From Candidatus Buchananbacteria bacterium (GTDB taxonomy: Bacteria; Patescibacteriota; Patescibacteriia; 2-01-FULL-39-33): DNA of 51,068 nt. Shown one piece after another: positions 10-51,056 of this stretch. Where the stretch lies: NCBI GenBank assembly GCA_030650095.1, contig JAUSEE010000044.1:1-51068 (forward strand), given 5' to 3'. Within the stretch, counting starts at the first letter, position 1. Each line of letters opens with the position of its first letter. Both the position numbers and the translations under genes were made by a program. The notes beneath the pieces are model-generated. The model ran no database searches and was not told where the DNA came from. It saw only the letters and a list, made by a program, of their open reading frames with translations.

Positions 10-558
10 ATGTGGGATCTCATCATAAAATCAATCTATTTTGTGTTGCCGGCCTATCTGGCTAATATGGCACCGGTTATCTGTGATAAGCTTAAGCTCT
101 TTAGGTTCCTAGCGAGGCCCATTGACGGAGGCAGAAAACTAGGCTCTCAGCCTATCTTTGGTTCTTCCAAAACATGGCGAGGCTTATTTTCGGGAGCTCT
201 CTTTGGCCTTATTACCACATCTTTCCAAGCTTATCTTTATAACTATGATTTCTTCAAAGATATCTCCCTCATTGATTACCCCTCTAACTTTATAGCCTTT
301 GGCTTACTTTCCGGCTTGGGAGCTATGGTGGGGGATTTAATCAAAAGCTTCTTCAAAAGAAGACTGAACAAGAAGAGCGGCAGCAGTTGGCCTGTCTTTG
401 ATCAATTGGATTTCGTCTTAGGCTTTCTGCTCTTTACTTATTACTTCAGTGCTCCGGCCGTGCCAATTATCTTAACCATCTTGCTTCTCACCCTCATCCT
501 TCACCCCTTAACCAACCTGGTTTCTTACGCCCTGGGCTTTAAGAAGGTCTGGTGGTAA
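10..558 (+). CDS. CarS-like CDP-lipid synthase (DUF46/CDP-archaeol synthase family)
   Basis: Predicted integral membrane cytidylyltransferase that would activate a lipid alcohol phosphate with CTP to give a CDP-lipid. The 182-residue protein is mostly hydrophobic, with about five membrane segments. It carries the family hallmarks: GSSKTWRG at residues 51-58, GDLIKSFFKRR at 108-118 and FDQLDFVLG at 130-138. The spacing of GD, KRR and DQLD resembles archaeal CarS more than bacterial CdsA. The length matches CarS (about 165-180) and is well below CdsA. The ATG at 10 is close to the window edge, so a longer N-terminus cannot be excluded, but the first helix looks complete. A lipid-kinase-like gene follows 15 nt downstream, which fits a lipid role. 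The true substrate is unknown. Confidence 0.8.
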   Translation: MWDLIIKSIYFVLPAYLANMAPVICDKLKLFRFLARPIDGGRKLGSQPIFGSSKTWRGLFSGALFGLITTSFQAYLYNYDFFKDISLIDYPSNFIAFGLLSGLGAMVGDLIKSFFKRRLNKKSGSSWPVFDQLDFVLGFLLFTYYFSAPAVPIILTILLLTLILHPLTNLVSYALGFKKVWW

Positions 559-573
559 AAATGTAAAAATGAT

Positions 574-1452
574 ATGAAAAAAGTTTTTGTTATATTCAAT
601 CCGACAGCCGGCTTAAAAAGCAGAATTGACGTGGAGGGGATAGTCAGGGACAAACTGGATAATTTAGGTTATAAAGTCCATTTATTTTATTTGAATAATC
701 ACTTTGAAGATGAAATAAGCGGGTTTGATTTTTCTGGTACTGATTTAGTGGTAGCGGTGGGCGGTGATGGTACGGTTAAAGTGGCCACTAAAATTATCAT
801 AGACCATAAATTAACAGCACCCCTGGCCATAATTCCTTACGGCTCGGCTAATGTGATTGCCATGGCGGCCGGCATCCCGACCAATATCAGGCATGCTCTT
901 AAATTAATAGACAAATCCAATAGAATCATAGCCATAGATGTCGGCCGAATTAATAAAAAACATTATTTTATCGTCGGGCTTTCCATCGGCTATATATCTA
1001 AGGTTGTTATTGGCGCCAGCCATCATTTGAAAAATAAGTTCGGTTTTTTCGGCTACCTGCTGGTTTTTCTTTTTAATAAGATTAAAATCAGAAAATTAAA
1101 GTTTGAGATAAAAACCAAAAACAGGAGTTTTTGGGTTAAGGGCAATAGTTTGATTGTTTTTAATACCCTTAATTATTATGGTTTGAAAATTAAAAAGCCC
1201 ATCAGTTTTGCTGATGGCGTTTTTAATTTATATGTTTTTACCAATAAAACATTTGTTTCTTTGCTGGAAACAATTATTCTAATGATTTTTTATAATCGTC
1301 CTCCCAGATATATTCTGGCTTTGGATAATAATTATTTTAAAATAATATTAAAAAAAGAAAGCGATTCTTGCCAGATTGACGGTGATTATATAAAATTACC
1401 CAGAGTGATTGAGGTGGAGGTTCTGCCTCAGGCGCTTAATATAATAACTTAA
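574..1452 (+). CDS. Diacylglycerol kinase catalytic-domain protein (YegS/DgkB/LCB5 type)
   Basis: Predicted soluble or peripheral lipid kinase that phosphorylates diacylglycerol or a related lipid using ATP. The N-terminal nucleotide-binding fold starts at residue 3 (VFVIFNPTAG). The family motif GGDGT is at 63-67, followed by PYGSANVIA at 88-96, the equivalent of the usual P-x-GT-x-N element. The C-terminal beta-sandwich region ends near QIDGDYIKLP, also typical. At 292 residues it is a normal length. It lies 15 nt after the CarS-like gene and overlaps mnmA by one base (TAATG), so the three are probably cotranscribed. Many members of this family have untested substrates, so the lipid is an inference. 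Confidence 0.85.
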   Translation: MKKVFVIFNPTAGLKSRIDVEGIVRDKLDNLGYKVHLFYLNNHFEDEISGFDFSGTDLVVAVGGDGTVKVATKIIIDHKLTAPLAIIPYGSANVIAMAAGIPTNIRHALKLIDKSNRIIAIDVGRINKKHYFIVGLSIGYISKVVIGASHHLKNKFGFFGYLLVFLFNKIKIRKLKFEIKTKNRSFWVKGNSLIVFNTLNYYGLKIKKPISFADGVFNLYVFTNKTFVSLLETIILMIFYNRPPRYILALDNNYFKIILKKESDSCQIDGDYIKLPRVIEVEVLPQALNIIT

Positions 1453-2519
1453 TGCCAAAAAAGAAGAAGAAAGTAGTCATAGGCATGTCCGGCGGCGTCG
1501 ATTCAGCGGTGGCCGCTGCTTTGTTATTATCTCAAGGCTATGAAGTGGTTGGTGTTTTTATGCAGTTTTGGTTTCCCACTGGCGTCAAATACGGCGAAAA
1601 CAGATGCTGCAGTTTGGAATCGTTTAATTCTGCCCAAGAAGTGGCTGACAGCTTGGGCATTAAAATCCATAAATTAAATGTCGGCCAAGAGTTTAAATCC
1701 AAAATAGTCGATGAATTTTTAAGCGCTTATGGCGCTTACAAAACTCCCAACCCTTGTGTCTCTTGCAATAAATTCATAAAGTTTGATCTGTTTTTAAAAA
1801 AAGCCCTAAGAGTCTTTGAAGCTGATTTTATCGCTACCGGCCATTATGCCAAAGTTAGAAAAATCGGCCGCAAGTACCAGCTGCTTAGATCTAATGATAA
1901 GAATAAAGATCAAAGTTATTTTCTTTATAATCTTAACCAAGATATTTTAAAGCATGTCATTTTTCCCATTGGCCGGTATCAAAAAAGCCACATAAGAAAA
2001 CTGGCTAAAAAATTCAATCTCTCGATTCATGATAAAAAAGACAGCCAAGAAATATGTTTTGTGGGGAACAGCCATTATGATTTTTTAAAAAGGTATTTAA
2101 AATTAAAGCCGGGTGATATTGTGGCTGAAACCGGCCAGAAAATCGGAGAGCATCAGGGTTTGCCGCTTTACACTATTGGCCAAAGAAGCGGGCTGGGTTT
2201 ATCCGGCGGGCCTTGGTATGTTGTAAGGCTCGACAAAATAAATAACAGATTAGTTGTTACCAAAGATCAATCCAAATCGGAAATATTTTCTAACACTCTT
2301 TTGTGCCACAAGTTGAATTGGGTTTTGAAAGAGCCTAAATTGCCGTTCAAGTGCCAAGCTCAGATAAGGTATCGCGGCCAAGCGGAAGAATGCGTTCTTA
2401 AAAAATCAGGCCATTTTATAAAAGTGGAATTTAAAAAGCCAGAGCGAGCAATAGCTCCCGGGCAATCAGTGGTTTTTTATAAAAGAAATCAGGTTTTGGG
2501 CGGTGGCGTCATAAAGTAG
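1452..2519 (+). CDS. mnmA: tRNA-specific 2-thiouridylase MnmA
   Basis: Installs the 2-thio group on wobble uridine 34 of tRNAs for Lys, Glu and Gln, using ATP and a persulfide sulfur donor. The PP-loop motif SGGVDS is at residues 13-18. The first catalytic cysteine sits in NPCVSCN (C102), and the persulfide-accepting cysteine in SQEICFV (C202), matching the paired cysteines of the family. GHYA at 130-133 and the C-terminal beta-barrel ending APGQSVVFY are also present. The length of 355 is standard. The start overlaps the preceding stop by one base, which implies translational coupling. Confidence 0.96.
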   Translation: MPKKKKKVVIGMSGGVDSAVAAALLLSQGYEVVGVFMQFWFPTGVKYGENRCCSLESFNSAQEVADSLGIKIHKLNVGQEFKSKIVDEFLSAYGAYKTPNPCVSCNKFIKFDLFLKKALRVFEADFIATGHYAKVRKIGRKYQLLRSNDKNKDQSYFLYNLNQDILKHVIFPIGRYQKSHIRKLAKKFNLSIHDKKDSQEICFVGNSHYDFLKRYLKLKPGDIVAETGQKIGEHQGLPLYTIGQRSGLGLSGGPWYVVRLDKINNRLVVTKDQSKSEIFSNTLLCHKLNWVLKEPKLPFKCQAQIRYRGQAEECVLKKSGHFIKVEFKKPERAIAPGQSVVFYKRNQVLGGGVIK

Positions 2520-2524
2520 CTATC

Positions 2525-2553
2525 TTGACAAACAACCTGAAATTTTGTAGGGT
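2525..2553 (+). promoter_or_regulatory. Weak candidate promoter before the zinc-ribbon gene
   Basis: TTGACA at 2525-2530, a 17-nt spacer, then TAGGGT at 2548-2553. The -35 box is perfect but the -10 match is poor. A better TATAAA lies at 2553-2558, at an unsuitable 22-nt spacing. It falls just after the mnmA stop and 63 nt before the next start. Confidence 0.35.
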
Positions 2554-2615
2554 ATAAAAAGTTTAATGATGATTTTTGCACTTTAAAATAAAAACAACAA
2601 AGAAAGAAAGTAAAT

Positions 2616-3023
2616 ATGCCAAATGGCGAAAAAGCTCTTGATCTGATTGTTATTTGCCCCGTTTGTTTTTCCAAAATGATTATTAATAGTAATCGCTATC
2701 TTGATGAACAAGAATCAGATTCGCCTCTGGCCGAGTGCCCGGATTGCGGTTTTATTGATTCGGTGGAAAATTTAGAAAATGATGACCTCAGGGAAAAAAT
2801 CACCTGTTATCAATTGCGTCTTCTATTGGGCCAAATCGTTCAAGGAGAGAGGGCCAAAGAATTGATAAATCTCCATCCGCTTTTTCCCTATAGCCGATCT
2901 AAGCAACTGGTGGCTTTAATGGAAAATAGCGTTCCTCCATCAGTGGATTTTTTAGATGAAAAGCTGATTCCTCCGCTAAGTTCAGAAGATATTGAGACGG
3001 TTAAAAAAGTTCTTAATCTTTGA
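2616..3023 (+). CDS. Orphan zinc-ribbon protein
   Basis: A 135-residue soluble protein of unknown function. The N-terminal part has two CxxC knuckles, C14/C17 (CPVC) and C41/C44 (CPDC), which should form one zinc ribbon separated by an acidic loop. The rest is helical and charged, with no recognised catalytic motif. The start ATG at 2616 is preceded by a purine-rich stretch (aagaaagaaag) acting as a weak ribosome-binding site. The stop lies 14 nt before the plsC start, with the plsC Shine-Dalgarno directly after the stop, so the pair is probably one transcript. Such lone zinc ribbons often bind nucleic acid, but nothing here proves it. Confidence 0.6.
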   Translation: MPNGEKALDLIVICPVCFSKMIINSNRYLDEQESDSPLAECPDCGFIDSVENLENDDLREKITCYQLRLLLGQIVQGERAKELINLHPLFPYSRSKQLVALMENSVPPSVDFLDEKLIPPLSSEDIETVKKVLNL

Positions 3024-3037
3024 AAGGAGGTCGCCTG

Positions 3038-3748
3038 ATGATTGAGAAAATTATAACGGTAACGCTTTATTCGTTTTGTATTACTGTCTTTGCCGTCTGG
3101 GCGATTATTTATATTCCTTTCCTTCTTGTTTTTGGGCCAAATAAATCAACTTGGCTCCGGCGCCTTTATGCCCAGTTTATGATTAAAGCTGGTTTTAATA
3201 AACTGGTGATTATTAATGCGCCGCCTCCAAATCGCGGACCGTATCTTTTTGTGATGAATCATCAGTCGCTTTTTGACGGGTTTATGCTAGCAGCGGTTTT
3301 GCCCTATCATTTTTCTATTTTGGCCAAGAAGGAAATTTTTTCCTTGCCGCTCTTTGGTTTTATTATCAGGCGGCTCGGCTTTATTCCTCTTGATAGGAAA
3401 AATTATAATGATTCTTTATCCAGTTTAAGCCAAGCGGCCGAAAAGATAAAATCAGGCATTCCGGTAGCTATTTTTCCAGAAGGCACCAGAACCAAAAACG
3501 GGCAAATCGGTCTTTTTAAAAAAGGGGCTTTTAGATTAGCTTTTGAGGCCAAGGCGATTATAGTGCCGGCGGGTATAACCGGTTCTTATCATTGCCAACC
3601 TAGTGGACAGCGGCTTCTTCGGCCAGGAGTTTTAAAAATAAATTTCGGCCAGCCGATGTCCTACGATAGTTACAGCAGTTTAGCCATCTTTGAACTGTCT
3701 GATCTGGTTAAGAAACAAATAATTGAATTATCAAATGATCACCTCTAG
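3038..3748 (+). CDS. plsC: 1-acyl-glycerol-3-phosphate acyltransferase (PlsC family)
   Basis: Predicted membrane-associated acyltransferase transferring a fatty acyl group to lysophosphatidic acid. Family motif I, NHQSLFD (H75, D80), and motif III, FPEGTR (146-151), are intact, with an N-terminal hydrophobic anchor at residues 5-32. I chose the ATG at 3038, giving 236 residues, over the upstream in-frame TTG at 3020, because a near-perfect Shine-Dalgarno (aaaggagg, 3023-3030) lies 7 nt before it. It ends in a clear terminator. With the CarS-like and diacylglycerol-kinase-like genes it forms a small lipid gene set. Substrate specificity cannot be read from the sequence. Confidence 0.92.
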   Translation: MIEKIITVTLYSFCITVFAVWAIIYIPFLLVFGPNKSTWLRRLYAQFMIKAGFNKLVIINAPPPNRGPYLFVMNHQSLFDGFMLAAVLPYHFSILAKKEIFSLPLFGFIIRRLGFIPLDRKNYNDSLSSLSQAAEKIKSGIPVAIFPEGTRTKNGQIGLFKKGAFRLAFEAKAIIVPAGITGSYHCQPSGQRLLRPGVLKINFGQPMSYDSYSSLAIFELSDLVKKQIIELSNDHL

Positions 3749-3773
3749 TCCCAATTTATGTTGGGACTTTTTT
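3747..3773 (+). terminator. Rho-independent terminator after plsC
   Basis: Perfect 8-bp stem agtcccaa/ttgggact with a 6-nt loop, followed by six T. It overlaps the plsC stop codon. Confidence 0.9.
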
Positions 3774-3824
3774 CTTGAAAAAAAACGTTTTTTATTGTAG
3801 GATTATAGTATTAAATTAATCATT

Positions 3825-5624
3825 ATGACCACCAAAGAGTTAAAAGAAAAATACCTTAATTTTTTCCAAAAGCATGATCATAAGCTTATTTTAGGATCAG
3901 CGCTTTTGCCGGAAAACGATCCGACTGTTTTGTTTACCACCGCCGGCATGCACCCTTTGGTGCCTTATCTTTTGGGTGAAAATCATCCGGCCGGAAAGAG
4001 ATTAACCAATATCCAAAAATGCATCAGAACAGGCGATATTGATGAAGTGGGGGATGATTGGCATCTGACTTTTTTTGAAATGTTAGGCAATTGGTCTTTG
4101 GGTGATTATTTTAAAAAAGAAGCCATCACCCTAAGCTTTGAATTTTTAACCAAGGAACTTAATATCCCCATTGATAAATTGGCCGTGTCTTGTTTTGAAG
4201 GTGAAGAAGCAAACAGCATACTGCAAGACAACGAATCGGCCGAAATTTGGGCCGGATTAGGTTTGCCCAAGGGACGAATTGCTTTTTTGGGCCGGAAAGA
4301 TAATTGGTGGGGTCCGGCCGGACAAACAGGCCCTTGCGGACCGGATACGGAAATGTTTTATTGGGCATCAGATGAGCCGGTGCCGGAAAACTTTGATCCA
4401 GCTAACGACAAAGGCTGGGTGGAAATTTGGAATGATGTTTTTATGCAGTATAACAAAACAGCTGACGGCGCTTACAAAGAACTGGCTCAAAAAAATGTTG
4501 ATACCGGTATGGGTCTGGAGAGGACAGCCGCTGTTTTAAGCGGCTTAAAAAGCGTTTATGATATAGAACCTCTTTCTACTGTTGTTTTGCAGATAACTTC
4601 CTTGGTGCCGGATTTGGAACTCTCTCCGGAATTATCACCCATCCTTGATCTAACCGATCAAGCCGGAGTTGAGCGGGAAAAATCCATCAGGATAATAGCC
4701 GATCATTTGCGTGCCGCTATTTTTATTCTGGCCGAAAAAATCGAGCCCGCCAATGTGGAGCAAGGCTATGTTTTGCGCCGTTTGATCAGACGGGCGATTA
4801 GGCACGGCCAGAAAATAGGCATAACAGAAGATTTTACTCCCCGGGTAGCCGAAGTGGTGATTGATAAGATGGGTGGGTTCTACAAGGAATTAAGGTTGAA
4901 CCGTGATTTTATCATTGATCAATTAATTAAAGAGGAAGAAAAATTCAACACCACTTTGGAAAAAGGCTTGAAGGAGTTTTCCAAATTAACTAAAGACAAG
5001 AAAATATCCGGCCAGGATATGTTCAAGCTTTTTACCACCTACGGCTTCCCTTATGAGACGACGATAGAGCTGGCCCAGGAAAATGGCTTGGAGGTGGACA
5101 CAGAAGAATACCAAAAAGAATTTGCCCAGCATCAGGCTATATCACGCCAAGGCGCCAGCCAAAAATTCAAAGGCGGCTTGGCTGATGATTCCAAGGAAAC
5201 GGCCAGGCTCCACACGGCGGCTCATTTGATGCTCGCCGCTTTGCGTAAAGTTTTGGGCGATCATATTTATCAGAAGGGTTCCAATATTACAGCCGAGAGG
5301 TTAAGGTTTGATTTTTCTCATGCTGAAAAATTAACTGATGAGCAAAAAAAGCAAGTTGAAGATTTGGTTAATCAGCAAATAGTCAGAAATTTGCCGGTTT
5401 CTATAAAAGAAATGACAGTGGAAGAAGCCAAAAAAGAAGGGGCTATGGGTGTTTTTGAAGAAAGATACGGCGAGAAGGTGAAAGTTTACAGTCTGGGTGA
5501 TTTTTCCAAAGAAATCTGCGGCGGTCCGCATGCCCAAAACACGGGTGAACTGGGGCATTTTAAAATACAAAAAGAGGAATCCAGCAGTTCGGGTGTAAGA
5601 AGAATTAAAGCTGTTTTAGAATAA
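3825..5624 (+). CDS. alaS: Alanyl-tRNA synthetase, short form
   Basis: Charges tRNA-Ala with alanine. At 599 residues it keeps the class II catalytic core, the tRNA-recognition helices (motifs such as NVEQGYVLRR) and the editing domain. The editing zinc site is intact: HTAAH begins at H463, and CGGPH spans C565-H569. The protein stops straight after the editing domain, so the C-terminal DHHA1/C-Ala domain of the roughly 875-residue bacterial enzyme is absent. The reading frame ends in a normal stop followed by a terminator, so this is a natural short form rather than a frameshift. A possible promoter is TTGAAA (3775-3780), 17 nt, TAGGAT (3798-3803). Confidence 0.96.
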   Translation: MTTKELKEKYLNFFQKHDHKLILGSALLPENDPTVLFTTAGMHPLVPYLLGENHPAGKRLTNIQKCIRTGDIDEVGDDWHLTFFEMLGNWSLGDYFKKEAITLSFEFLTKELNIPIDKLAVSCFEGEEANSILQDNESAEIWAGLGLPKGRIAFLGRKDNWWGPAGQTGPCGPDTEMFYWASDEPVPENFDPANDKGWVEIWNDVFMQYNKTADGAYKELAQKNVDTGMGLERTAAVLSGLKSVYDIEPLSTVVLQITSLVPDLELSPELSPILDLTDQAGVEREKSIRIIADHLRAAIFILAEKIEPANVEQGYVLRRLIRRAIRHGQKIGITEDFTPRVAEVVIDKMGGFYKELRLNRDFIIDQLIKEEEKFNTTLEKGLKEFSKLTKDKKISGQDMFKLFTTYGFPYETTIELAQENGLEVDTEEYQKEFAQHQAISRQGASQKFKGGLADDSKETARLHTAAHLMLAALRKVLGDHIYQKGSNITAERLRFDFSHAEKLTDEQKKQVEDLVNQQIVRNLPVSIKEMTVEEAKKEGAMGVFEERYGEKVKVYSLGDFSKEICGGPHAQNTGELGHFKIQKEESSSSGVRRIKAVLE

Positions 5625-5647
5625 AATACAAACTTATTCACCTAAAG

Positions 5648-5678
5648 CCGTTAATTAGCTAAAATTAGCGGTTTTTTT
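5648..5678 (+). terminator. Rho-independent terminator after alaS
   Basis: 9-bp stem ccgttaatt/aattagcgg with one G-U pair and a 6-nt loop, then seven T. It insulates the ubiquitin-like cassette from alaS. Confidence 0.85.
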
Positions 5679-5692
5679 GAACTTAAAAAACA

Positions 5693-5721
5693 TTGACAAA
5701 ATGATAATATTTTGGTATTAT
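5693..5721 (+). promoter_or_regulatory. Promoter of the ubiquitin-like cassette
   Basis: Consensus -35 TTGACA (5693-5698), 17-nt spacer, -10 TATTAT (5716-5721). Transcription should begin near 5728, leaving a leader of about 50 nt before the E2-like gene. No operator-like repeat is visible, which suggests constitutive expression. Confidence 0.85.
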
Positions 5722-5777
5722 AGACGGTTGAACTTTGACAACCAAAAAACGGATTAAACTCATAGGGAGACAGCAAG

Positions 5778-8129
5778 ATGAACAATATTAGAGGCGACAG
5801 TTTTTTAGGAAAAACTATCTCTGTAATCATTATTATTTTGGGCGTTATTTTTTCTATTTCCGGCAATTTAGTTTTAACTTCGGGAGCTTTCGTCTTAAAC
5901 GATTTTGTGGACCGGGAGCATCCTCTTTCTGCCGATTGGGATAAAAATGTTAAAGCCGGAGAACCTCCGGCTCTAAAAGTTGAATACGAGCCGTATGAGG
6001 TTAGCCAAGCCAGGTTCTATGATTTTTTTCGCCTGCCTGATTGCTTGAGACTTAATTTATCGTCTTTTAATTTTTTGCTTATAGCCTTATTGTTTGGCCT
6101 GGTTTATTTGTGGTGCTTGAATAGAGGCTTTAAGAATAAAGATGAAGATTCTTCATTCGGAGTTTTTTTATTTTGCACCTCGGCTCTGCCGCAAATTTTA
6201 TTATTTCTCGCTTTGATTGTTTCTACTATATTTTGTTATGACAAGCCGGATCTAAGCACTTTGGGCATTATTGATGCCCAAATGTCTGATAGGGCTCATA
6301 GCTTTCTGTCAAGAGAGGATTTGGCTATTGTAATTGTTACACTAATGGTAATTGTGGTTATTGATTTTGCTGTGGTTTTAGTGGCGTATTTTGTATCTAA
6401 GATTTTTGAAGACATCGCCAAAAAAGTGAAGACCTATATTCTTAACAAGATAACTTTGGGCAACAACACCATGCTGTGTTGTCAAAACGGAGTGGTGGAG
6501 TTTATTTCTATTGATTTTAAATTGAAATGGATTCCTTTCCCCGCCCTATTTTTACAAAGGCGGGTCTTGGCTCGTTTCTCTGGCGGTGATTTTAGTAGTA
6601 ACAGCGATGTCTTTCGCCAGTGGCTGGGTGATCTATCCATTGCCATTGAAGAAGAACAGCTAAGGCAACTGTCCCAGCTCAATATGAACGGCAGTTCGCT
6701 GGTGATTGGTGATGACAACAGTGTTCAGATTATGAGACTGGAGCCGGCTCTGCAGTGGCGCCCATTTCCTCAAACTGTTATTCATCAGGAAATAATCAGG
6801 CGCGTAAGCTTTGATAATTTCTTCCGCTGCTTACTGGCTGATTCCAAGCAAGTGGCCTTGGAGGAACTGAAGCGCCTTCTGGTTGGCTCTTATCAAGAGA
6901 GATTCCAGTCTGTTGGCTATGAGGCTTCACGGTCTTTGATCAGGCATATTTGCGCCAAAACTCTGGCGACTCTAAAACAGTCAACGGCCAAGATTAAAAA
7001 TATTCAAGATAATTCAGTTACACAGAGAATGGCTGAAATGCTTCAGGGATTGACAGATGAAAAACTAACAGCTTTCAAGCAGGAGGTTGTAGCTAGCATC
7101 CAAGAATCATTGCAATTAAGAATCAGCCAAAAAATTAAAGAGCAAATACTTACTCCGCTGCGCGGTATCTTAGCCGAGCAGGTGCCTCTGGTAAACGACA
7201 GAGGCAGTGTTGACGCTTTGCCGGAAGGGACCAAATTTTTCTTTAGCCACGGCGAGACGCAAATTGTAGTGGTCGAGCAAAAACCGCAGATGAGAACTCT
7301 GCATTTTATGGATGAGTTTGTCGGCGGAGACGGTTGTTATAATTTGGCTTTGCCCTATGTTATTTTTGTGATTATCTTTCATGAGGGACAATTTAGATTG
7401 TTATATCTTTACTATGCTAATAAGCCCATGGTTTCACTGGACAGTCAAGTCTTCCACAGCAATTTACCCAATATCCACGGCGGGCATGATGTTTGCCTGG
7501 GATTTAGGGGCTGTCGAGCCACCAGTCTGTCCGGCAAAGTGGAAGAAGTAATAGCCCATTTCTGGCAAAGCCGGTTTAATAATGATTTAAACGATTGGTA
7601 TCGCCATTTTGCTGACCAAGAAAGAGTTTTTAGGAATTTAGCTTCTTGGCAGAAAGCCAGCCAGGACGATCCCTTGTTTGTTTTAAAGGTTAATTGGCCA
7701 TCTTCTAATAGTGATATAGCTCAAAAAATTGCCTACCATATGAATGGTTCAATCACCAGCCGAGTCGTTAATTTTGATCGTTTGATTTCACAAATTTTAC
7801 AATCAGAAGGAGTTAACATCGGCGCTTTGGCTAGGGAATGCTGTGACAGCATTAACCCTAACAATCGTTATCCCAAGAAAGTTTTAAATGCTTTAAAGAA
7901 ACAGATGACATTATTGTCAGATGATATTTGCCAGGCTTTTGAAACCAGGCTGACTGATTTAATAAGTACGCCGGATGAAAAAGATTTGCAAGCAGCTGTT
8001 TCTAGTGCTACCACCCAGGCGGTGGAAGAAACATTTACCACTGATTTTAACAAAATCGCCAACCAAGTTTTACTTCGTCGGCGAATTGATTCCAAAGAAT
8101 TAATTGAACAGATCCTAACCCAACCATAG
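5778..8129 (+). CDS. Membrane-anchored E2-like (UBC-fold) protein, PRTRC-B/Prok-E2_D-like
   Basis: A 783-residue multidomain protein, first gene of the cassette. Residues 12-215 hold about four hydrophobic membrane segments. Residues 230-470 are a soluble, largely helical linker. Residues about 475-640 resemble the E2-like domain of PRTRC system protein B: a strand pair with LPYV, a kP-x-x-SLD stretch, LPN, then the predicted catalytic cysteine C573 in HDVCLG, followed by a helix with FW. No canonical HPN asparagine is seen, as expected for this E2 clade. The last 140 residues are helical. Predicted role: accept the ubiquitin-like protein from the E1-like enzyme as a thioester and transfer it at the membrane. 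The start ATG has agggaga upstream. Family recognition is from motif memory; no profile search was done. Confidence 0.7.
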   Translation: MNNIRGDSFLGKTISVIIIILGVIFSISGNLVLTSGAFVLNDFVDREHPLSADWDKNVKAGEPPALKVEYEPYEVSQARFYDFFRLPDCLRLNLSSFNFLLIALLFGLVYLWCLNRGFKNKDEDSSFGVFLFCTSALPQILLFLALIVSTIFCYDKPDLSTLGIIDAQMSDRAHSFLSREDLAIVIVTLMVIVVIDFAVVLVAYFVSKIFEDIAKKVKTYILNKITLGNNTMLCCQNGVVEFISIDFKLKWIPFPALFLQRRVLARFSGGDFSSNSDVFRQWLGDLSIAIEEEQLRQLSQLNMNGSSLVIGDDNSVQIMRLEPALQWRPFPQTVIHQEIIRRVSFDNFFRCLLADSKQVALEELKRLLVGSYQERFQSVGYEASRSLIRHICAKTLATLKQSTAKIKNIQDNSVTQRMAEMLQGLTDEKLTAFKQEVVASIQESLQLRISQKIKEQILTPLRGILAEQVPLVNDRGSVDALPEGTKFFFSHGETQIVVVEQKPQMRTLHFMDEFVGGDGCYNLALPYVIFVIIFHEGQFRLLYLYYANKPMVSLDSQVFHSNLPNIHGGHDVCLGFRGCRATSLSGKVEEVIAHFWQSRFNNDLNDWYRHFADQERVFRNLASWQKASQDDPLFVLKVNWPSSNSDIAQKIAYHMNGSITSRVVNFDRLISQILQSEGVNIGALARECCDSINPNNRYPKKVLNALKKQMTLLSDDICQAFETRLTDLISTPDEKDLQAAVSSATTQAVEETFTTDFNKIANQVLLRRRIDSKELIEQILTQP

Positions 8130-8145
8130 AAGGAGAACAGCCCAA

Positions 8146-9123
8146 GTGTTTCCGGTATATGTCTTAGAAAAAGGCACCAAGTTGCCTGAAGAGGGGACTT
8201 ATTACATTGTGGCTGGAAACGGCTTGTTCTTGCGCAAAGACACAGGCTTGATACGAGCCACGGTGGCAGTTGAAGGTATTTCTTTTTTGGATAAGATTGA
8301 TCTCTCAGCGCGGCTGCTCTTGCCGAAATTGTCGCAGGAGCTGATTGTCCGCTCCCTCTTGTTTTTTCGGGCGGTGTATAAGAGGTTTCATGGTGAAGCC
8401 GAAGTGCAGATACATTATAGTTCCGCCACGCAAGAATATTTCATTCATTGTCCGAAGCAGAAAGTCAGCGCGGCCGGTGTTGATTACGATTCCAAAGAAA
8501 GGTTTGAGGGTTTCCAACTGGTGGGCACCATTCATTCGCATTGCGGTTTTCTAGCCTTTCATTCTTCCATTGATCACAATGATGAAAAGTATTTTGACGG
8601 TTTGCATATTACCATCGGCCACGTGGATCAGCCCTATTTTACCATTAGCTGTTCTATGATGGTCAATGGCAACAGGTTTACCTTTGAACCGGAAGATGCC
8701 ATCATCGGCATCAAGAAGGTTGAGTGGCAGAAAACGTCTGTCCTAAATCACCGTCGTAAGTCTGTTTCTCATACCCAGACCGGTGGCCAGCCTCTGGAAG
8801 GGAAAAGCTTGATTAGCCGACTGTTTGATTTATCACCTGATAATTATTGGCAGTATGCTCCTGGCCATCAGTATTCAGGCATCACAGTCAAGGCCGATCA
8901 ATTTTGGGATATCGCCATGCCCGAAGGCCAGGATTACCGCCATGTCAGTTTTCCCAAGAGTTGGCTGGAAAGAGTGAGTGAACATATTTATCCTAAAATT
9001 ACTCTTACCAGTACTTATGTTGCCAGTGCACCCGTTGCCAAGGTTCCCGGTTCTATTGTGGCGGCTGACATTGTTTCGTCTCGTCCCGCTGTTGAAGCCG
9101 GCGATCCCTGGGGCGAAGAATAA
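8146..9123 (+). CDS. JAMM/JAB (Mov34/MPN) metalloprotease, predicted deubiquitinase-like
   Basis: Predicted zinc isopeptidase that would mature or remove the ubiquitin-like protein. The JAMM signature is complete: H130-x-H132, seven residues, then S140-x-x-D143, preceded by a glutamate-rich strand. The domain spans about residues 55-195. The C-terminal 130 residues are an unassigned extension rich in aromatics and prolines. I follow the GTG start at 8146, with aggag at 8131-8135. An in-frame ATG further down would remove the first strand. The E2-like gene ends 16 nt upstream and the E1-like gene starts 3 nt downstream, so coupling is tight. PRTRC protein A is a Mov34-type protein in the same kind of cassette. 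Confidence 0.85.
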   Translation: MFPVYVLEKGTKLPEEGTYYIVAGNGLFLRKDTGLIRATVAVEGISFLDKIDLSARLLLPKLSQELIVRSLLFFRAVYKRFHGEAEVQIHYSSATQEYFIHCPKQKVSAAGVDYDSKERFEGFQLVGTIHSHCGFLAFHSSIDHNDEKYFDGLHITIGHVDQPYFTISCSMMVNGNRFTFEPEDAIIGIKKVEWQKTSVLNHRRKSVSHTQTGGQPLEGKSLISRLFDLSPDNYWQYAPGHQYSGITVKADQFWDIAMPEGQDYRHVSFPKSWLERVSEHIYPKITLTSTYVASAPVAKVPGSIVAADIVSSRPAVEAGDPWGEE

Positions 9124-9126
9124 GCC

Positions 9127-9792
9127 ATGAAAATAAAGGTTATCGGCATTGGCGGCATTGGCGGGGCGCTTTTGCCAGCCTTGACAAGATACCTTAATTT
9201 TGCTTATAATGGTTCCGAGATCACACTCATTGATGGCGACAGTTATGAAGAAAGAAATAACCAGCGCCAAGAGTTTGATGAATTGGGCTACAAAGCCGAA
9301 GTTACGGCCGAGCGCCTAAGGCCGTTATTTAACAATTTACTTTTTGTTTTTAAAAACGAGTATGTTACTCCAGGCAATGTCTATGAAATCATCAGGGAGG
9401 ATGACATTGTTCTTATGGGAGTTGACAATCATGCCACTAGGAAATTGGTTTCTGACAGATGCGAGGATATGGAAACTGTAACCTTGATTTCCGGGGGCAA
9501 TGATTTTACGGACGGCAATGTGCAAATGTATATAAGGAAAAACGGCGAGGATATTACCTTGCCGATTGCCAACGATTTTCATCCCGAAATTATGGAGCCG
9601 GCAGACAGAAATCCGGCCGATGTTGGTTGCGGTGAATTAGCTGAAAGCGAACCGCAGTTGGTTATCGCCAACAATGCTATGGCGGCGGTTATGCTCTCTG
9701 CTTTCTACAGCTATTTGCAAGGCAAAGTAACTTACGACGAGATTTATGTTGATATTCTAACTGGTAATTCCCGAGCAGTTAATCGGCGATAG
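9127..9792 (+). CDS. ThiF/E1-like adenylating enzyme
   Basis: Predicted to adenylate the C-terminus of the ubiquitin-like protein and form a thioester. A Rossmann nucleotide-binding loop, GIGGIGG, is at residues 7-13. The acidic strand end D36-G-D38 is followed by the E1-type arginine-bearing ERNNQRQ (42-48), and MGVDN is near residue 98. The predicted catalytic cysteine is C168 in VGCGE, followed by an IANN helix, an arrangement resembling PRTRC ThiF proteins. At 221 residues it is compact, and the paired CxxC zinc sites of ThiF/MoeB are absent. No thiamine or molybdopterin genes lie nearby, which argues against a sulfur-carrier role. Start ATG is 3 nt after the JAB stop. Confidence 0.87.
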   Translation: MKIKVIGIGGIGGALLPALTRYLNFAYNGSEITLIDGDSYEERNNQRQEFDELGYKAEVTAERLRPLFNNLLFVFKNEYVTPGNVYEIIREDDIVLMGVDNHATRKLVSDRCEDMETVTLISGGNDFTDGNVQMYIRKNGEDITLPIANDFHPEIMEPADRNPADVGCGELAESEPQLVIANNAMAAVMLSAFYSYLQGKVTYDEIYVDILTGNSRAVNRR

Positions 9793-9833
9793 ACGCTGAT
9801 TTGCTAAAACCAAAAAAAACAAGGAGAAAGAAC

Positions 9834-10130
9834 GTGTCCAACAACAACGAAACCGCCGTAGCAGAAGATGAAGAAGTGGAATTGGCAGAGGTTGCTCCAG
9901 TTCGAAACGAAGCCACCGGCATTATCACCGTAACGTGCGGCGCCAACGTCAGCACTTTCGGCAATATTAGCGGGCGTAGCATTGGCGCTTTGCGTCAGGA
10001 CTTGGGCGACGTGCTCGGTATTCAGCCAGGTGCCAAGGCGATCGCGTCCGGCGAAGAGGTCAACGATGATTACATCACTGTAGACGGCGACCGCATCGAA
10101 TTCATCAAGGAATCCGGCACGAAGGGCTAA
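9834..10130 (+). CDS. Ubiquitin-like protein (beta-grasp, GTKG tail)
   Basis: Small 98-residue protein, predicted conjugated modifier. The first 28 residues are acidic and probably disordered. Residues 29-98 read as a beta-grasp fold: strand GIITVTCG, helix GALRQDLGDVLG, strands around YITVDGDRIEFI. It ends in GTKG, so a glycine is C-terminal without processing. I recall the same GTKG ending in PRTRC system protein C (Prok_Ub). I chose GTG at 9834 because aaggag (9821-9826) lies 7 nt upstream; a TTG at 9801 would add 11 basic residues and has no such site. The gene is visibly richer in C-ending codons than its neighbours, as in highly expressed or transferred genes. ThiS or MoaD is the alternative, but no partner genes are present. 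Confidence 0.82.
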   Translation: MSNNNETAVAEDEEVELAEVAPVRNEATGIITVTCGANVSTFGNISGRSIGALRQDLGDVLGIQPGAKAIASGEEVNDDYITVDGDRIEFIKESGTKG

Positions 10131-10176
10131 CCCAAAACAAGCAGTACTTTAATTTAAACTTTAACTTAAACACAGG

Positions 10177-10210
10177 CGGGCAGTATAGTAATATATTGCC
10201 CGTTTTTTTT
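10177..10210 (+). terminator. Terminator of the ubiquitin-like cassette
   Basis: 11-bp stem cgggcagtata/tatattgcccg with one G-U pair and a gtaa tetraloop, then eight T. It marks the end of the four-gene unit. Confidence 0.93.
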
Positions 10211-10288
10211 ATTCTTTACATTTTATTATTTATTTGCTAATCTGATTGAGGTTTATTTTATTTTAGCTTAATTTCGGCTTAATTTCTC

Positions 10289-17308: not shown

Positions 17309-20300
17309 ATGCCAGAAATAAAGCCCAGTCAAATCGAACAGCAAAAAACAGTTATTTCGCCTCATGAAAAGCGCGAGGAGATTTTTGACAGTATTTCCAA
17401 CGTTAGAGATTACGGACAAGCGATAGATGCGACCGAACTGATTTTTGAGCATTCCATTGAAGACGGCCTGAAGCTGTCTGATCGGCTTGGCCTAGGTGAT
17501 GAACAATTAGCGCATATCGCCATGTCGTCGGCTTTTGCTCTCAAGCATCCGGAGGTGTTCAAGTTGATGGTGCGAGAGGCCACAACCAGCCGAGCGCTAA
17601 AAGATATTAGGGATGACAAAAAGCATAAATCTGTTCTTGATTCTATAATGTATACACATGATCAACTTATTACAGCTGAAAAATCAGGCGATTGGAGCGA
17701 GATATCAGATGAAATTGCTCAGCAGAATCCCAAATCATTGTCTGAAGGATTAGGAAAGGAAATAGATAATTATTACGCCCCGCTTCTGACAACTCGCGAA
17801 TTCAAGCCTAGAAATTTACCAAGCGAATATCCAATAGGGGAATCGATTCCCGGAATCCAAGGAGAGAAAAGACAGCTCAAGAGCGCGGAAGAATTAGCCG
17901 ATGAAGCGCTCTTGCAATTGGAGCTGATGATGCAACCGGCCTATTACGCCACAACAATCAATGCGACTCTGGAGAGATATTTAGCAGAAAATAGCCTGTC
18001 GGGCGAGTCGGCTCTCCCCACGGTCGATATTTTTGTCGTGCCCGAACAAATAAAGGCGGAGTGTCGCCGCTTGGGTATTCCATATGGTGATGTGGAAACG
18101 CGCCTGAAGAGCGCCAGATACACCAGCATCACCGCCGGCATCAAAAAAGGGGAAGCCGAGCGCGGCGTGCTAAGTAAATTGAATAAATCGCTCTCGCGCA
18201 AAGGCCAAAAGGCGGAATTGAAGGACGATAGATATGAGGTGGTGGAAGATAAGGAAGGCCGGAAAAAAGAAAAAAAAGAAGAATTTGATTATTGGGATCA
18301 GGAAGAGTTAATAAGTACAGATGAGGTTTCCCGCATAGTTGTAGATGGGGTGGAATTAGCTATGCAATTGGTGGATAATAATCAGAGTTTGGTTTATTAT
18401 ATCTACAAATTGGGCTTTGTTCAGACTGCAATAGTATCTGATAAATTTCCAAATAGTTCAGGTGAAGTTTCAGGCAAAATATTAAAGAGGACAATTGTTC
18501 GTAAAGGCACAAAATTAATTCTTGAATATGAAGATAACGCCATAAAATTAGTTAGAGAGATAGAATTACATCCGGAAGTGATTGATAAGTTTAAACAGGA
18601 ACAAGAAAAAGAGAAATCTGATTATTGGAGTACGAAGGAAGAATTTAATGGAGATGTTAATTTTCCGAAATTAAGAATAAATGGCGTTGATTTAGTAGTC
18701 GTCAAAGGGTTAAATGATAGTAACTCCTGGTATGCCATTGATTATGGCGGACATTTTATCAGAGTTTCAACTCAATTTAATGCAGGAAACATAATTAAAA
18801 AGATATCAAGAAAAGGAGAACTACTTACTAGGCTGGTTGAGATGTCAAATGGCAAAACAATCGATCAGGAAATTCATTTATATGATAGGGAGATTGATGA
18901 GTTTAAAAAAAAGATTGAAAAGGAAAAAGAAGAATCAAAAAATATTGAAGCTGAATTTGTTGAAAAAGGCCTATTGGGTGATATTTATAAATTGGGAGGA
19001 ATTGAAGTTTATTTAATGAAGTCGTCTGGTGGCACTCAACAAATTATTGAACGCCAGAGCGGATTGTATATCACAAAATTTTTTCCGGAGCTTGAAGCAT
19101 TTGATGAAATGTATTATGAAAATGAACATATCATCATAGCGGGTAAGACAAAAAAAGACGGCCAGCCCATTACGCTAAATTTAAAAATTGAAAGCCCCGA
19201 TCCGAATGAAAATATTACCGACAGATTTGTAAAATTAATTGAAGGCGAAAAAGAGGACGAAAAAACAGAAGAAAAAGAATTTGATTTTGACAAATTCGAG
19301 GACAAAGCGCTGGATTATATTGAAAAATTTATTGATGAAAGTGAAGACGCGTGGTATATAGCGAAAGGATTAGCTGGTCTAGATAGCGACCGCGCCTGGA
19401 AGTTGCGCGATAAGTTGCTTGAAATGGGTGTAGATATTAGAGATATTGTTGAGGGCATCGCTGGTCTGGACAGCGACCAGGCTTGGAAGTTGCGCGATAA
19501 GTTGTTGTTTAGAAGTAGTACGAGTGATGGTATTGTTGCTATTAGTCTGGCTGGTCTGGACAGCGACCAGGCTTGGAAGTTGCGCGAACAGTTATTTAAA
19601 AAAGGTGAAAAAGGATCTATCACTCTTAGTTTATCCGGTCTAGACAGTGATCGCGCTTGGAAAATGCGCGAGAAGTTGATTCAAGATAATGTGAACCATG
19701 GTGATTTCGCAGCAGGCCTAGCCGGTCTGGACTCAGAGCGCGCCTGGCAAATGCGCGAGAGACTGTTTAAAAATATTAATACTTTCAACAATATTGCTGA
19801 AAGTCTAGCCGGTCTGGACTCAGATCGTGCCTGGCAAATGCGAGATCAATTATTTAAAAAAGGTGAAAAAGGATCTATCGCTCTTAGTTTATCTGGTCTG
19901 GATAGCGATCGTGCTTGGAAAATGCGCGATAAGGTATTTGAAGCGGGTGAAGATAAAAGTGGTGTCGCTCTTAGTTTAGCCGGTTTAGACTCGGATCGCG
20001 CTTGGAAAATGCGCGAGCAGTTGTTTAAAGAGAGAGAAGTGAGGTATGTTGCTCATAGTTTAGCCGGGGATAATGTCACCTTTGTCTGGCAATTGAAACT
20101 TGACAAGAAGAAAAAACAAGCTGCAAAACTAAATAAAGAAGAGCAAGAAAAACTTAAGTTGTTGAATCTATTGCATAGTCCCGATCTTCCTGGAATTACC
20201 GAGCACTTCAGCGAAGAATTGAGCGCGGAAGAGAAAGCCAAGAAAGAAAAAACAGTCAAGAAAAAAACTCTAAGCGGTTCAGCCTTGTTTTCCGGCATTA

Positions 20301-22051
20301 TTAATAAATTGATCAAGAAAAATCCTCAGCCGTTTCTGGAGACTATGCCGGCCAAGCGCGACCGCCTGCCTTATGTTTTTGCAGAGCAGTTGGCTTTTAG
20401 GATTTTTCCCGAAATAAAAAGAGAGCAAGAAAGAAACGCTTGGCGCGGATTTGCCGGCTATGGGGGATTGGAAGGCCCAGGGCCGGAAGGGCCGGCAGGT
20501 GGACCGGAAGATTATCTTAATCCATCAAGCGGGATGGAAATGATCGGGGGCGGGGCGGAAGACATGGATGATAATCGGGAAGTGATGGAATTTCGCGACG
20601 CCTTAGGGCAACTTATTGTCACTAATATCTTGGGCAAGTATGATGCCTCGTCCAGGCGCTGGCTGTCCACGGATTTTGCCGTTGATGCGCCGCTGTCTGA
20701 ACCCACTATCGAAACCACGGCGACTTTGCCTAATATCAAGAATTTGTCTCAAGTGTCTCTGCCTAAGCCCTTGGAGTCAAATATTATCCCAGAACGGGTA
20801 AAAGGCCTTGATGCCAAGGGCAAAGAGTATGATTTGAAGGCCAGCGTTAGCAGTTCAGGAGAAGCCAGGGTGGCGGAAAAGCCGAAAGCGGTGGAAAAAA
20901 TCGTTTATTCTTTGGCGGTCTCTGCCGCTCCGGCGCCCATGGCGGAAATCAGCGGCAACGATTATGAAAGATTCAAGCATAAATTGGAATCAGTCGGCGG
21001 CGGGGATTTAACCAGTTCGCTAGCCAGTTTGCCCGAGGATTTGGAATTGGATCTTTTGGCGGCTATAAAAGACAAGGAACCAAAAGATCAAGTGACGGCG
21101 ATTGAGCGCTTGGTGCGCGATTTGGGGCATTATGATTTTAACAATCAGGAAGTCAGCCGGTTGAAAGCCGGCAAACCGCTGGAAGAGCAACTATATATCA
21201 TGGAACAGCGTTTGGAAGAACTTAAATCAAATAAGCCAGGCTCGGCAGAAAAATTAAAAGGCAAGAGATTTGCTGGTGTCTGCGCCGATTTTGCGCAGAT
21301 AACTGCGATTTTGCTACGCCGCGCCGGTTTTGCTTCCGGCATAGTCGCCGGTTTCAGCGGAGTTGGCAAGAAAATCGCGGTCAAACACGCGCATGCTACT
21401 TCTTTTGTCGTCTGGCCAGATGAAACCGGCAAGAATAGAGCCATTAGTATCGATGGCACGCCCGACGGAGTTGTCGGCATATCCTTGCCATCACTAGTGG
21501 AAAGAGAACAAGAAGCGGAACGGCAAGAAAAAGAAATGTCAAAAACCGCTCTGGCTGAAATAGAAAGCATCATCTCCGGCTTGAAAAACCAGGATACTGA
21601 AACTGTCCGCCGGATGTCCAATGGCGAATTGGAGCGTATAGTTAATAATATTTTAAAATACCAAGTTAAAGAATCGCATTTGGCGATAATTGAGCGTCTT
21701 TTTGAACATTATTTGTATACGCCGGTTCATAATTTGGATTTAAATAATCCTAAACAAAAGGGCGAAATACTAGTAGAGTTAGCTGGCGCGGTGGAAAGGC
21801 AAAGGAAACGCTTAAAAGAAGAGCCGGAAAAAGATACTACCCCGGCCGGCAACAGGCTCATGCAAATGATGCAGGATTTCTTGCGCCGATTTTCCGCGGA
21901 TGAAGATGCTGAAAGCAAGGATGATGCTTTTGCTGTTATGGAAAAAATAGTGGAACTGGTTCAGAATGATTTAAACGAAGTGGAACAAAAATCAGCCTTT
22001 GCCGTCTTGGCTTACTTGAAAGCCAAAAATATATCGGGCAATAAAAAGTAA
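17309..22051 (+). CDS. 1580-residue repeat protein with C-terminal transglutaminase-like domain
   Basis: No signal peptide or membrane segment. Residues 1-290 are helical. About 320-650 hold three diverged copies of a roughly 105-residue beta-rich module, each ending in an acidic/basic helix (for example EVIDKFKQEQEKEK). Residues about 686-920 contain eight 28-30-residue repeats with consensus GLDSDRAWKMR, plus a degraded ninth. A Pro/Gly-rich linker (EGPGPEGPAGGP) follows. A transglutaminase-like papain fold sits near 1315-1390, with candidate triad C1325 (GVCADF), H1362 and D1382 (SIDGTP). The remainder is helical. It sits between a flippase and glycosyltransferases, so a cell-surface or glycan link is possible, but without a secretion signal this is uncertain. 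Enzymatic activity is unproven. Confidence 0.75.
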   Translation: MPEIKPSQIEQQKTVISPHEKREEIFDSISNVRDYGQAIDATELIFEHSIEDGLKLSDRLGLGDEQLAHIAMSSAFALKHPEVFKLMVREATTSRALKDIRDDKKHKSVLDSIMYTHDQLITAEKSGDWSEISDEIAQQNPKSLSEGLGKEIDNYYAPLLTTREFKPRNLPSEYPIGESIPGIQGEKRQLKSAEELADEALLQLELMMQPAYYATTINATLERYLAENSLSGESALPTVDIFVVPEQIKAECRRLGIPYGDVETRLKSARYTSITAGIKKGEAERGVLSKLNKSLSRKGQKAELKDDRYEVVEDKEGRKKEKKEEFDYWDQEELISTDEVSRIVVDGVELAMQLVDNNQSLVYYIYKLGFVQTAIVSDKFPNSSGEVSGKILKRTIVRKGTKLILEYEDNAIKLVREIELHPEVIDKFKQEQEKEKSDYWSTKEEFNGDVNFPKLRINGVDLVVVKGLNDSNSWYAIDYGGHFIRVSTQFNAGNIIKKISRKGELLTRLVEMSNGKTIDQEIHLYDREIDEFKKKIEKEKEESKNIEAEFVEKGLLGDIYKLGGIEVYLMKSSGGTQQIIERQSGLYITKFFPELEAFDEMYYENEHIIIAGKTKKDGQPITLNLKIESPDPNENITDRFVKLIEGEKEDEKTEEKEFDFDKFEDKALDYIEKFIDESEDAWYIAKGLAGLDSDRAWKLRDKLLEMGVDIRDIVEGIAGLDSDQAWKLRDKLLFRSSTSDGIVAISLAGLDSDQAWKLREQLFKKGEKGSITLSLSGLDSDRAWKMREKLIQDNVNHGDFAAGLAGLDSERAWQMRERLFKNINTFNNIAESLAGLDSDRAWQMRDQLFKKGEKGSIALSLSGLDSDRAWKMRDKVFEAGEDKSGVALSLAGLDSDRAWKMREQLFKEREVRYVAHSLAGDNVTFVWQLKLDKKKKQAAKLNKEEQEKLKLLNLLHSPDLPGITEHFSEELSAEEKAKKEKTVKKKTLSGSALFSGIINKLIKKNPQPFLETMPAKRDRLPYVFAEQLAFRIFPEIKREQERNAWRGFAGYGGLEGPGPEGPAGGPEDYLNPSSGMEMIGGGAEDMDDNREVMEFRDALGQLIVTNILGKYDASSRRWLSTDFAVDAPLSEPTIETTATLPNIKNLSQVSLPKPLESNIIPERVKGLDAKGKEYDLKASVSSSGEARVAEKPKAVEKIVYSLAVSAAPAPMAEISGNDYERFKHKLESVGGGDLTSSLASLPEDLELDLLAAIKDKEPKDQVTAIERLVRDLGHYDFNNQEVSRLKAGKPLEEQLYIMEQRLEELKSNKPGSAEKLKGKRFAGVCADFAQITAILLRRAGFASGIVAGFSGVGKKIAVKHAHATSFVVWPDETGKNRAISIDGTPDGVVGISLPSLVEREQEAERQEKEMSKTALAEIESIISGLKNQDTETVRRMSNGELERIVNNILKYQVKESHLAIIERLFEHYLYTPVHNLDLNNPKQKGEILVELAGAVERQRKRLKEEPEKDTTPAGNRLMQMMQDFLRRFSADEDAESKDDAFAVMEKIVELVQNDLNEVEQKSAFAVLAYLKAKNISGNKK
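19367..20070 (+). repeat. Tandem GLDSDRAW repeats inside the 1580-residue gene
   Basis: Eight in-frame units of about 84-90 bp, each encoding GLDS(D/E)(R/Q)AW(K/Q)(L/M)R followed by a variable helix. The block at 19588-19675 and that at 19851-19935 are nearly identical at the DNA level, which indicates a recent multi-unit duplication or conversion. Confidence 0.9.
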
Positions 22052-50471: not shown

Positions 50472-50500
50472 ATTATATCACCGTTTAAAATGACAATCAA
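50472..50500 (-). promoter_or_regulatory. Promoter of the candidate small RNA
   Basis: Minus-strand TTGATT (50500-50495), 17-nt spacer, perfect TATAAT (50477-50472). Start predicted near 50465. Confidence 0.7.
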
Positions 50501-50526
50501 TCTTTTTTTTATATCCACCGGGGAAA

Positions 50527-51056
50527 CCGAGGCCGTCAGGCCTCGGAGGAGAGGGGTGTTCGTTGGACTCATCGCCCTGACATCATGTAAGATTCTCTAT
50601 ACTATGAAGTATAGAAAACAAGCACAAAGTGTTTACTACACCAGATATCATATAGTATTTGTAACTAAGTATAGAAGAAAAGCCCTCAATGAAGGTCTGG
50701 GTGCCTTTTGTGTGGGAATTTTACGTCGCATTTGTCAAAACTACCCTGATTTGGAATTATATGAAGCCAAGTGTGATGAAGATCATATCCATTTTTTAAT
50801 ATCAATACCACCGAAGTGGTCAGTTAGCGATGCAGTCAATATCTTAAAATCAAATTCGTCCAGGGCCATGCGACGTAAATTCCCTTTTCTAGAACAGCTT
50901 TATGATCGTCATGTCGGCTTTTGGTCAGACGGTTATTTTGTCTCAACTGCTGGAGTAAATGAAGAACAGATTAAAAAATACATAAAGCTTCAGGGCGAAG
51001 AGGACAACGGACAAGCGAAGCTTGAAATATAAAATACCGAGTCCGTGAGGGCTCGG
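50527..51056 (+). mobile_element. IS200/IS605-type element with matching end hairpins
   Basis: The transposase gene is bracketed by similar hairpins: ccgaggcc-gtca-ggcctcgg (50527-50546) and ccgagtcc-gtga-gggctcgg (51037-51056, one G-U pair). Both have 8-bp stems and gt(c/g)a loops, as expected for subterminal hairpins recognised by a Y1 transposase. The outer boundaries cannot be fixed because the window ends 12 nt later. No TnpB is seen, so it is IS200-like or a REP-associated type. Confidence 0.7.
50604..51032 (+). CDS. tnpA: Y1 (HUH) transposase TnpA, IS200/IS605 or REP-associated
   Basis: Single-strand DNA transposase. 142 residues; the first strand YYTRYHIVFVTKYR and the HUH motif H61-I-H63 (DHIHFL) are intact. 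Y126 in KKYI is the nucleophile. The length matches IS200 TnpA (about 130-155). I chose ATG 50604; the frame extends upstream to 50490 but runs through the left-end hairpin. All catalytic residues are present, so it may be active. Confidence 0.92.
   Translation: MKYRKQAQSVYYTRYHIVFVTKYRRKALNEGLGAFCVGILRRICQNYPDLELYEAKCDEDHIHFLISIPPKWSVSDAVNILKSNSSRAMRRKFPFLEQLYDRHVGFWSDGYFVSTAGVNEEQIKKYIKLQGEEDNGQAKLEI

Follow-up and report, generated by a model that had tools for sequence, protein, structure and literature searches.

We analysed a stretch of 51,068 nucleotides (nt) from contig JAUSEE010000044.1 of a Candidatus Buchananbacteria bacterium, called the window below at its whole length, and in it a cassette of four plus-strand genes at positions 5778–10130. 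The genes encode an E2-like protein, a JAB/JAMM metalloprotease, an E1/ThiF-type adenylating enzyme and a small ubiquitin-like protein (Ubl). They were re-found in the open reading frame (ORF) listing and in the raw sequence, in the single orientation and with the gaps of 16, 3 and 41 nt given in an earlier note that a model had made from the letters alone. The host genome comprises 1.16 Mb and is 98% complete. Since the cassette, on a 51-kb contig, is flanked by alaS and infA-rpsM-rpsK-rpsD-rpoA, its location is chromosomal.

Genes and proteins of the cassette

The E1 protein scored 1e-17 against Pfam ThiF, above the cut-off, and 1.4e-15 against PRTRC_ThiF. A profile of 30 relatives retrieved MoeB, UBA4, ThiF, UBA5, the SUMO E1 and BubCD from the PDB. 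The invariant residues include D36, D38, N44, R47, K56, D100 and C168, with the ATP-site residues and the catalytic cysteine position of the E1/ThiF superfamily both retained. Cys168 was invariant in 30 homologues and aligned with the cysteine of MoeB “LTC” and PRTRC ThiF “PSC”. The JAB protein, which has a PRTRC_A-like N-terminal domain, scored 7e-10 against PRTRC_A and 2e-4 against Prok-JAB. Its residues E84, H130, H132, S140 and D143 form the JAMM/MPN+ pattern E...HxH-x7-S-x2-D and are invariant in 27 relatives. By eye, Arg37 is present in the N-terminal domain and the Trp of PRTRC A is absent.

The Ubl of the window ends in GTKG without a tail. On its own it had no Pfam match, and 17 of 30 relatives in its family matched ThiS, one of them at 1e-6. 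The AlphaFold2 (AF2) model (mean predicted local distance difference test, pLDDT, 84) has the element order E-E-H-E-E-E, and its top Foldseek matches in the PDB were ubiquitin-like domains, Caldiarchaeum ubiquitin, NEDD8 and SUMO (E 5e-4 to 5e-3), indicating a predicted ubiquitin-like beta-grasp fold that ends in glycine. Among 42 recognisable Ubl ends, 21 read GEKG and the others are GxKG, GxNG or GxKA variants. Seventeen of the 42, including that of the window, stop exactly at the motif; the other 25 carry tails, mostly of 1–14 residues, some of which are possibly artefacts of start or frame calls. The presence of tails in some hosts and their absence from others would fit a JAB that matures precursors in the former and solely deconjugates in the latter. 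The composition of the Ubl gene is odd, with a GC content of 0.55 and a third-position GC content (GC3) of 0.64, versus 0.33–0.53 for its neighbours.

Two variations on the Ubl were seen among the relatives. Ubls ending in GDKA or GTKA occur in L054, L055, L058 and L059, which belong to one family (f46), and L055, L058 and L059 carry a second E2 gene, which lacks the catalytic Cys. The Ubls of L027 (10757–11230), L043 (10681–11112) and L055 (8523–8942) are extended at the N-terminus by what resembles a SAP/Rho_N helix pair, and Rho_N matched one A6 member at 2e-6.

The E2-like protein has four predicted N-terminal transmembrane (TM) helices (residues 14–32, 96–114, 129–147 and 184–202 by Kyte-Doolittle), a Prok-E2_D core at about residues 475–640 and a helical C-terminus. 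The trimmed domain scored 25.5 bits (1.2e-5) against Prok-E2_D (PF14460), a borderline value just above the gathering cut-off of 25, and the untrimmed protein scored 22.6–24.9 bits (22.6 at full length), under that cut-off. In HHalign, the family aligned with PRTRC_B over 153 columns, Cys on Cys (93.5% probability, E 2.4e-7). Cys573 is kept in all 28 full-length and all 37 domain homologues. Cys is present in 52 and Asn in 50 of the 55 rows of the E2 alignment, and the three Cys exceptions are second E2 paralogues. The spacing from Asn565 to Cys573 is that of HPN...C in E2s.

For the C-terminal domain of this 783-residue protein, the earlier note had named the lack of a match to the ubiquitin-conjugating (UBC) fold as refuting its reading. 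The AF2 model (pLDDT 89) had no significant UBC match in Foldseek against the PDB. The best UBC matches, Rad6, Cdc34 and UBE2L6, lay at E 0.5–0.9, with template modelling scores of 0.24–0.28 for Rad6 and Cdc34, and good structural matches were found only to unnamed phage proteins. A PDB profile search with the E2-like alignment yielded chance matches only, and HHalign against four eukaryotic E2s was not significant. The assignment of the protein as a putative E2 is thus supported by its Prok-E2_D membership and N-x7-C motif, not by fold.

The residues singled out in the earlier note were correctly chosen: C573 of the E2-like protein, H130, H132, S140 and D143 of the JAB (to which E84 is added) and C168 of the E1. 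Its beta-grasp assignment and C-terminal glycine for the Ubl are borne out by the model and by the conserved GxKG/A ending. Its claim of a complete minimal E1–E2–Ubl–JAB set in a bacterium of the Candidate Phyla Radiation (CPR) is supported.

A promoter-like site and an intrinsic terminator flank the four genes (Table 1). The note had described a consensus promoter and a perfect terminator as bounding the unit; both are in place, and the promoter matches 11 of 12 consensus positions, not all. Promoter-like sites numbered 19, versus 13.6 by chance, and terminators 11, versus 7.2, which is mildly above chance. The evidence therefore lies in the placement of the two signals and not in their number. 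For the Ubl gene, the mechanical ORF call begins at TTG 9801; GTG 9834 is the likelier start, given the AAGGAG just upstream. A site matching 12 of 12 positions, TTGACA-18-TATAAT, lies at 9181–9210 within the E1 gene. It could serve separate expression of the Ubl or be due to chance.

Table 1. Positions of the cassette genes, predicted catalytic codons and flanking features in the window.
Feature	Position	Strand	Remarks
Inserted segment between alaS and infA	5625..10212	.	Approximate; compared with G001 and G002
Promoter-like site	5693..5721	+	TTGACA-17-TATTAT, TG before -10 (extended -10), 11/12 to consensus
E2-like protein gene	5778..8129	+	783 aa
Predicted catalytic Cys573 codon	7494..7496	+	Asn565 eight residues upstream (N-x7-C)
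JAB/JAMM metalloprotease gene	8146..9123	+	325 aa, GTG start
E1/ThiF-type adenylating enzyme gene	9127..9792	+	221 aa
E1 Cys168 codon	9628..9630	+	Catalytic-Cys position of MoeB/PRTRC ThiF
Ubl gene	9834..10130	+	98 aa, GTG start, AAGGAG a few bases upstream
Intrinsic terminator	10174..10205	+	14-pair stem, then T-run

Distribution of the cassette and its insertion next to alaS

A scan of 84,980 species genomes with the E1 alignment detected 38 loci, and four more on viral contigs; these counts are lower bounds, since the scan requires short exact peptide patterns. The bacterial hosts belong to Parcubacteria and other CPR, Omnitrophota, Planctomycetota, Verrucomicrobiota, Lentisphaerota, Myxococcota, Gemmatimonadota, Acidobacteriota and Chromatiales, and two hosts are archaeal bins. 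The cassette recurs sporadically, in eight or more phyla and on viral contigs. All four genes were found by profile in 41 of 49 E1-bearing loci, far beyond chance, and a single strand carries the genes in 48 of the 49. The remaining loci are mostly truncated at contig ends or have a Ubl too divergent for the profile; in L003, a small ORF stands where the Ubl is expected. The order E2-JAB-E1-Ubl is found in 19 loci including the window, and the Ubl gene comes first in the Planctomycetes/Verrucomicrobia/Myxococcota branch. Pairwise divergences of the four proteins are correlated (r 0.47–0.74; 0 of 1000 permutations), and the nearest relative of the window cassette is L014 for each protein. Although common host ancestry inflates such correlations, they support, without proving, inheritance as a unit.

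Close to the host, the cassette is rare, occurring in 10 of 381 genomes of the host class and 5 of 380 of the host phylum. The co-conservation in relatives looked for in the earlier note holds in distant relatives; 0 of 9 same-genus or same-family genomes have the cassette. In two congeners (G001 and G002), the end of alaS and rpsM are 656–787 bp apart with infA between them, compared with 5387 bp here. Similarity to the congeners stops at the alaS stop codon and resumes past the terminator (about 10,212), and the promoter-like site at 5693–5721 falls within the additional segment. A self-contained unit, bringing a promoter and a terminator along, was therefore inserted here or, less probably, lost from both congeners. 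A search for mobile-element flanking repeats gave short, imperfect ones only, and this line of evidence was rejected. The position beside the ribosomal operon, as described in the note, is chromosomal and adjoins infA-rpsM; it is an insertion absent from G001 and G002 and not a conserved house-keeping location.

Several distant loci have other neighbours. The viral contigs L060–L063 hold whole or partial cassettes, L063 being cut at the contig end; a viral-contig scan with the window JAB, confirmed by tblastn, found none, and the four came from the E1 alignment. L061–L063 share their RNA polymerase beta/beta' genes with L027; this contig of 211 kb was binned as Woesearchaeota and may, given these genes, be a large phage. 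A reverse transcriptase (RT) gene precedes the cassette in L021 (6949–7821), L029 (2905–3756) and L033 (5961–7271), with matches of 1e-70 to 1e-84 to the retron-class RT_XIII models of PADLOC, and also in L024 and L038, where the assignment is through clustering only. The RT-adjoining cassettes come from Omnitrophota, Lentisphaerota and Planctomycetota, a Cas4-like nuclease is nearby in L029 and L038, and cassette and RT may form a distinct system. A second, longer E1-like ThiF protein (441 aa) is encoded upstream of the cassette in L041 (1548–2873), and likewise in L039 and L046; this type, in Verrucomicrobia and Myxococcota, has further conserved genes including an AAA ATPase. L018 has tandem duplicated E2-JAB-E1 cassettes (47–5871), and its sole downstream Ubl-like ORF (5882–6064) ends early, perhaps through a frameshift or assembly error.

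Comparison with PRTRC and other systems

The PRTRC gene set corresponds to operon type 6d of Iyer et al. 2006 (PMC1779556), an equation made here from the organisms Cnec and Pnap in common and the same parts. The core of type 6d, a Ubl, JAB, E1 and E2-like protein in one operon, is present in the window; its additional alpha-helical conserved protein has no counterpart, as the four genes are the only ones between promoter and terminator. The earlier note had matched the four proteins to PRTRC A, B, C and ThiF. Homology holds for ThiF, A and, more weakly, B: profiles built from the cassettes only reached PRTRC ThiF at 8e-20 to 3e-18, A at 1e-15 to 3e-10 and B at 7e-8 to 3e-3. These profiles had no match to PRTRC C. 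The identification of the Ubl as Prok_Ub/PRTRC C was rejected, because the profile–profile probability was 11.8%, over the last 14 columns only, and the Ubl is ThiS-like instead; PRTRC C itself matches Prok_Ub at 1e-26 to 4e-28. Neither PRTRC C/Prok_Ub nor PRTRC F was found in the window or the whole genome with profiles that detected a Cupriavidus plasmid as positive control. The note's statement that ParB and PRTRC F are absent is supported; for ParB, a match elsewhere in the genome lies below the cut-off.

Like PRTRC, the cassette combines a homologous ThiF E1, a JAB with an N-terminal domain (A) and a Prok-E2_D E2 (B) in the order E2-JAB-E1, with a small Ubl ending in GxKG (PRTRC C ends in KG). 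In contrast to PRTRC, it is chromosomal, lacks ParB, E and F, and has an E2 with TM helices. Its scores lie far under the NCBIfam cut-offs (57.3 against 144.75 bits for ThiF, 38.7 against 101.8 for A and 14.5 against 131.45 for B). The N-terminal Trp of PRTRC A and the downstream His of the type 6d E2 are not conserved, and Asn replaces the FTH of PRTRC B. In the E1 tree, whose root is unsure owing to a very long MoeB branch, the cassette E1s are separated from the PRTRC ThiFs, which group with Bacillota E1s on a long branch with support of 98/92. These comparisons indicate that the cassette is a divergent variant of the type 6d kind, and that its E1, JAB and E2 are, by sequence, distant PRTRC relatives.

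Bil (BilABCD, PMC11354881) and Bub (PMC13373217) likewise have a Ubl, E1, E2 and JAMM protease in one operon, with tailed Ubl precursors as in part of this family. Unlike in those systems, the E1 of the window is separate, small and of the ThiF type rather than the two-domain BilD or the BubCD fusion, the E2 comes from another family, CapK/CapS, CapW and CapH/P genes are absent next to the cassette, and PADLOC gives no match. The cyclic-oligonucleotide-based antiphage system CBASS (Cap2/Cap3, PMC10097602) shares E1-type adenylation plus a JAB; the window differs in its separate E1 and E2, its own Ubl and the lack of a cGAS-like gene. The Ubl and E1 folds are also those of ThiS/ThiF, MoaD/MoeB and TtuB, from which the cassette differs by its E2-like and JAB partners and the lack of sulfur-transfer genes. 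The open-access papers searched included none joining PRTRC with ubiquitin-like systems, nothing relevant on Parcubacteria and ubiquitin, and no description of the cassette. Papers by Burroughs, Iyer and Aravind from 2009 and 2011 could list it, and any claim of novelty is limited accordingly.

Proposed mechanism and role

We propose, with a probability of about 0.74, that the cassette is a reversible Ubl protein conjugation system, spread horizontally as an accessory unit and most probably serving to counter phages or other mobile elements. The E1 would adenylate the C-terminal glycine of the Ubl and take the Ubl onto Cys168; made tail-less, the Ubl would need no maturation in this host. It would then be handed to Cys573 of the E2-like enzyme, held at the membrane through its four predicted helices, which, needing no dedicated E3, would move it to amino groups of proteins close by, and the JAB metalloprotease would take it off. 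TM helices are also predicted in the E2-like proteins of L015, L016 and L056, suggesting that conjugation in this CPR subgroup probably takes place at the membrane. Such a four-gene cascade with a 221-aa E1 and a ThiS-like Ubl, in organisms with genomes of about 1 Mb, is putatively related to the ubiquitin systems of eukaryotes and would partly bridge the distance from sulfur-carrier ThiF/ThiS pairs to full ubiquitin systems. It is small enough for in vitro reconstitution, so that Ubl conjugation in such bacteria is directly testable.

The ThiS matches in the Ubl family and the proximity of the E1 profile to MoeB, UBA4 and ThiF would also suit a sulfur-carrier pathway, with the Ubl as a ThiS/TtuB-type carrier, the E1 as the adenylase that yields a thiocarboxylate, and the E2-like protein as sulfur acceptor or transferase. 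This pathway is unlikely, as the window cassette lacks rhodanese, ThiG, MoaE and cysteine desulfurase, and in nearly all intact loci an E2-like protein with conserved Asn and Cys is present, as is a JAMM protease. A reduced but true PRTRC system with the same plasmid-linked function is slightly less probable still: the reach of the cassette-only profiles, the common gene order and the similar Ubl C-termini speak for it, and the failed cut-offs, the missing C and F, the sub-threshold ParB, the unrelated Ubl profile, the separate E1 branch and the chromosomal location speak against it. We give equally little weight to a membrane-anchored ligase that tags a lipid or envelope protein in the manner of Atg8 lipidation, possibly governing contact between epibiont and host. 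That the E2-like protein modifies a membrane lipid or other small molecule, as Atg3/Atg8 do in eukaryotes, appears very improbable; the TM helices in the window and in the three other loci and the lack of an E3 would agree with it, whereas the majority of homologous E2-like proteins have no predicted TM helix, which argues that the core chemistry is independent of the membrane. Finally, the missing UBC match and the second E2 paralogues without Cys could reflect a decayed or non-conjugating cassette with the E2-like protein as a mere scaffold, an explanation we hardly credit, since the catalytic positions in the window are intact, the four ORFs are open and 52 of 55 E2 sequences keep the Cys.

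For the conjugation system that we favor, we lean towards a role in conflict with phages, because the cassette is rare, mobile, present on viral contigs and, elsewhere, adjacent to phage RNA polymerase and retron-class RT genes. Several observations weigh against the proposed conjugation system or its conflict role. PADLOC returned no defence-model match for the four proteins, only weak matches of its E1–E2 models to the ThiF domain, and the E2-like model lacks a significant UBC match. Four Ubls terminate in Ala rather than Gly, and the cassette encodes no target, E3 or degradation partner. The neighbours of the CPR loci are house-keeping genes and not defence islands, and the window has neither the phage RNA polymerase nor the RT of the distant loci. 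The conflict role is therefore argued from the distribution and from the distant loci. Alternatively, the cassette may have a house-keeping role in CPR cells.

Two further features were observed elsewhere in the window. A protein of 1580 aa encoded at 17309–22051 contains about ten near-perfect tandem repeats of AGLDSDRAWKMRDKLF, and an ORF at 50490–51032, near the contig end, resembles by eye an IS200-type transposase.

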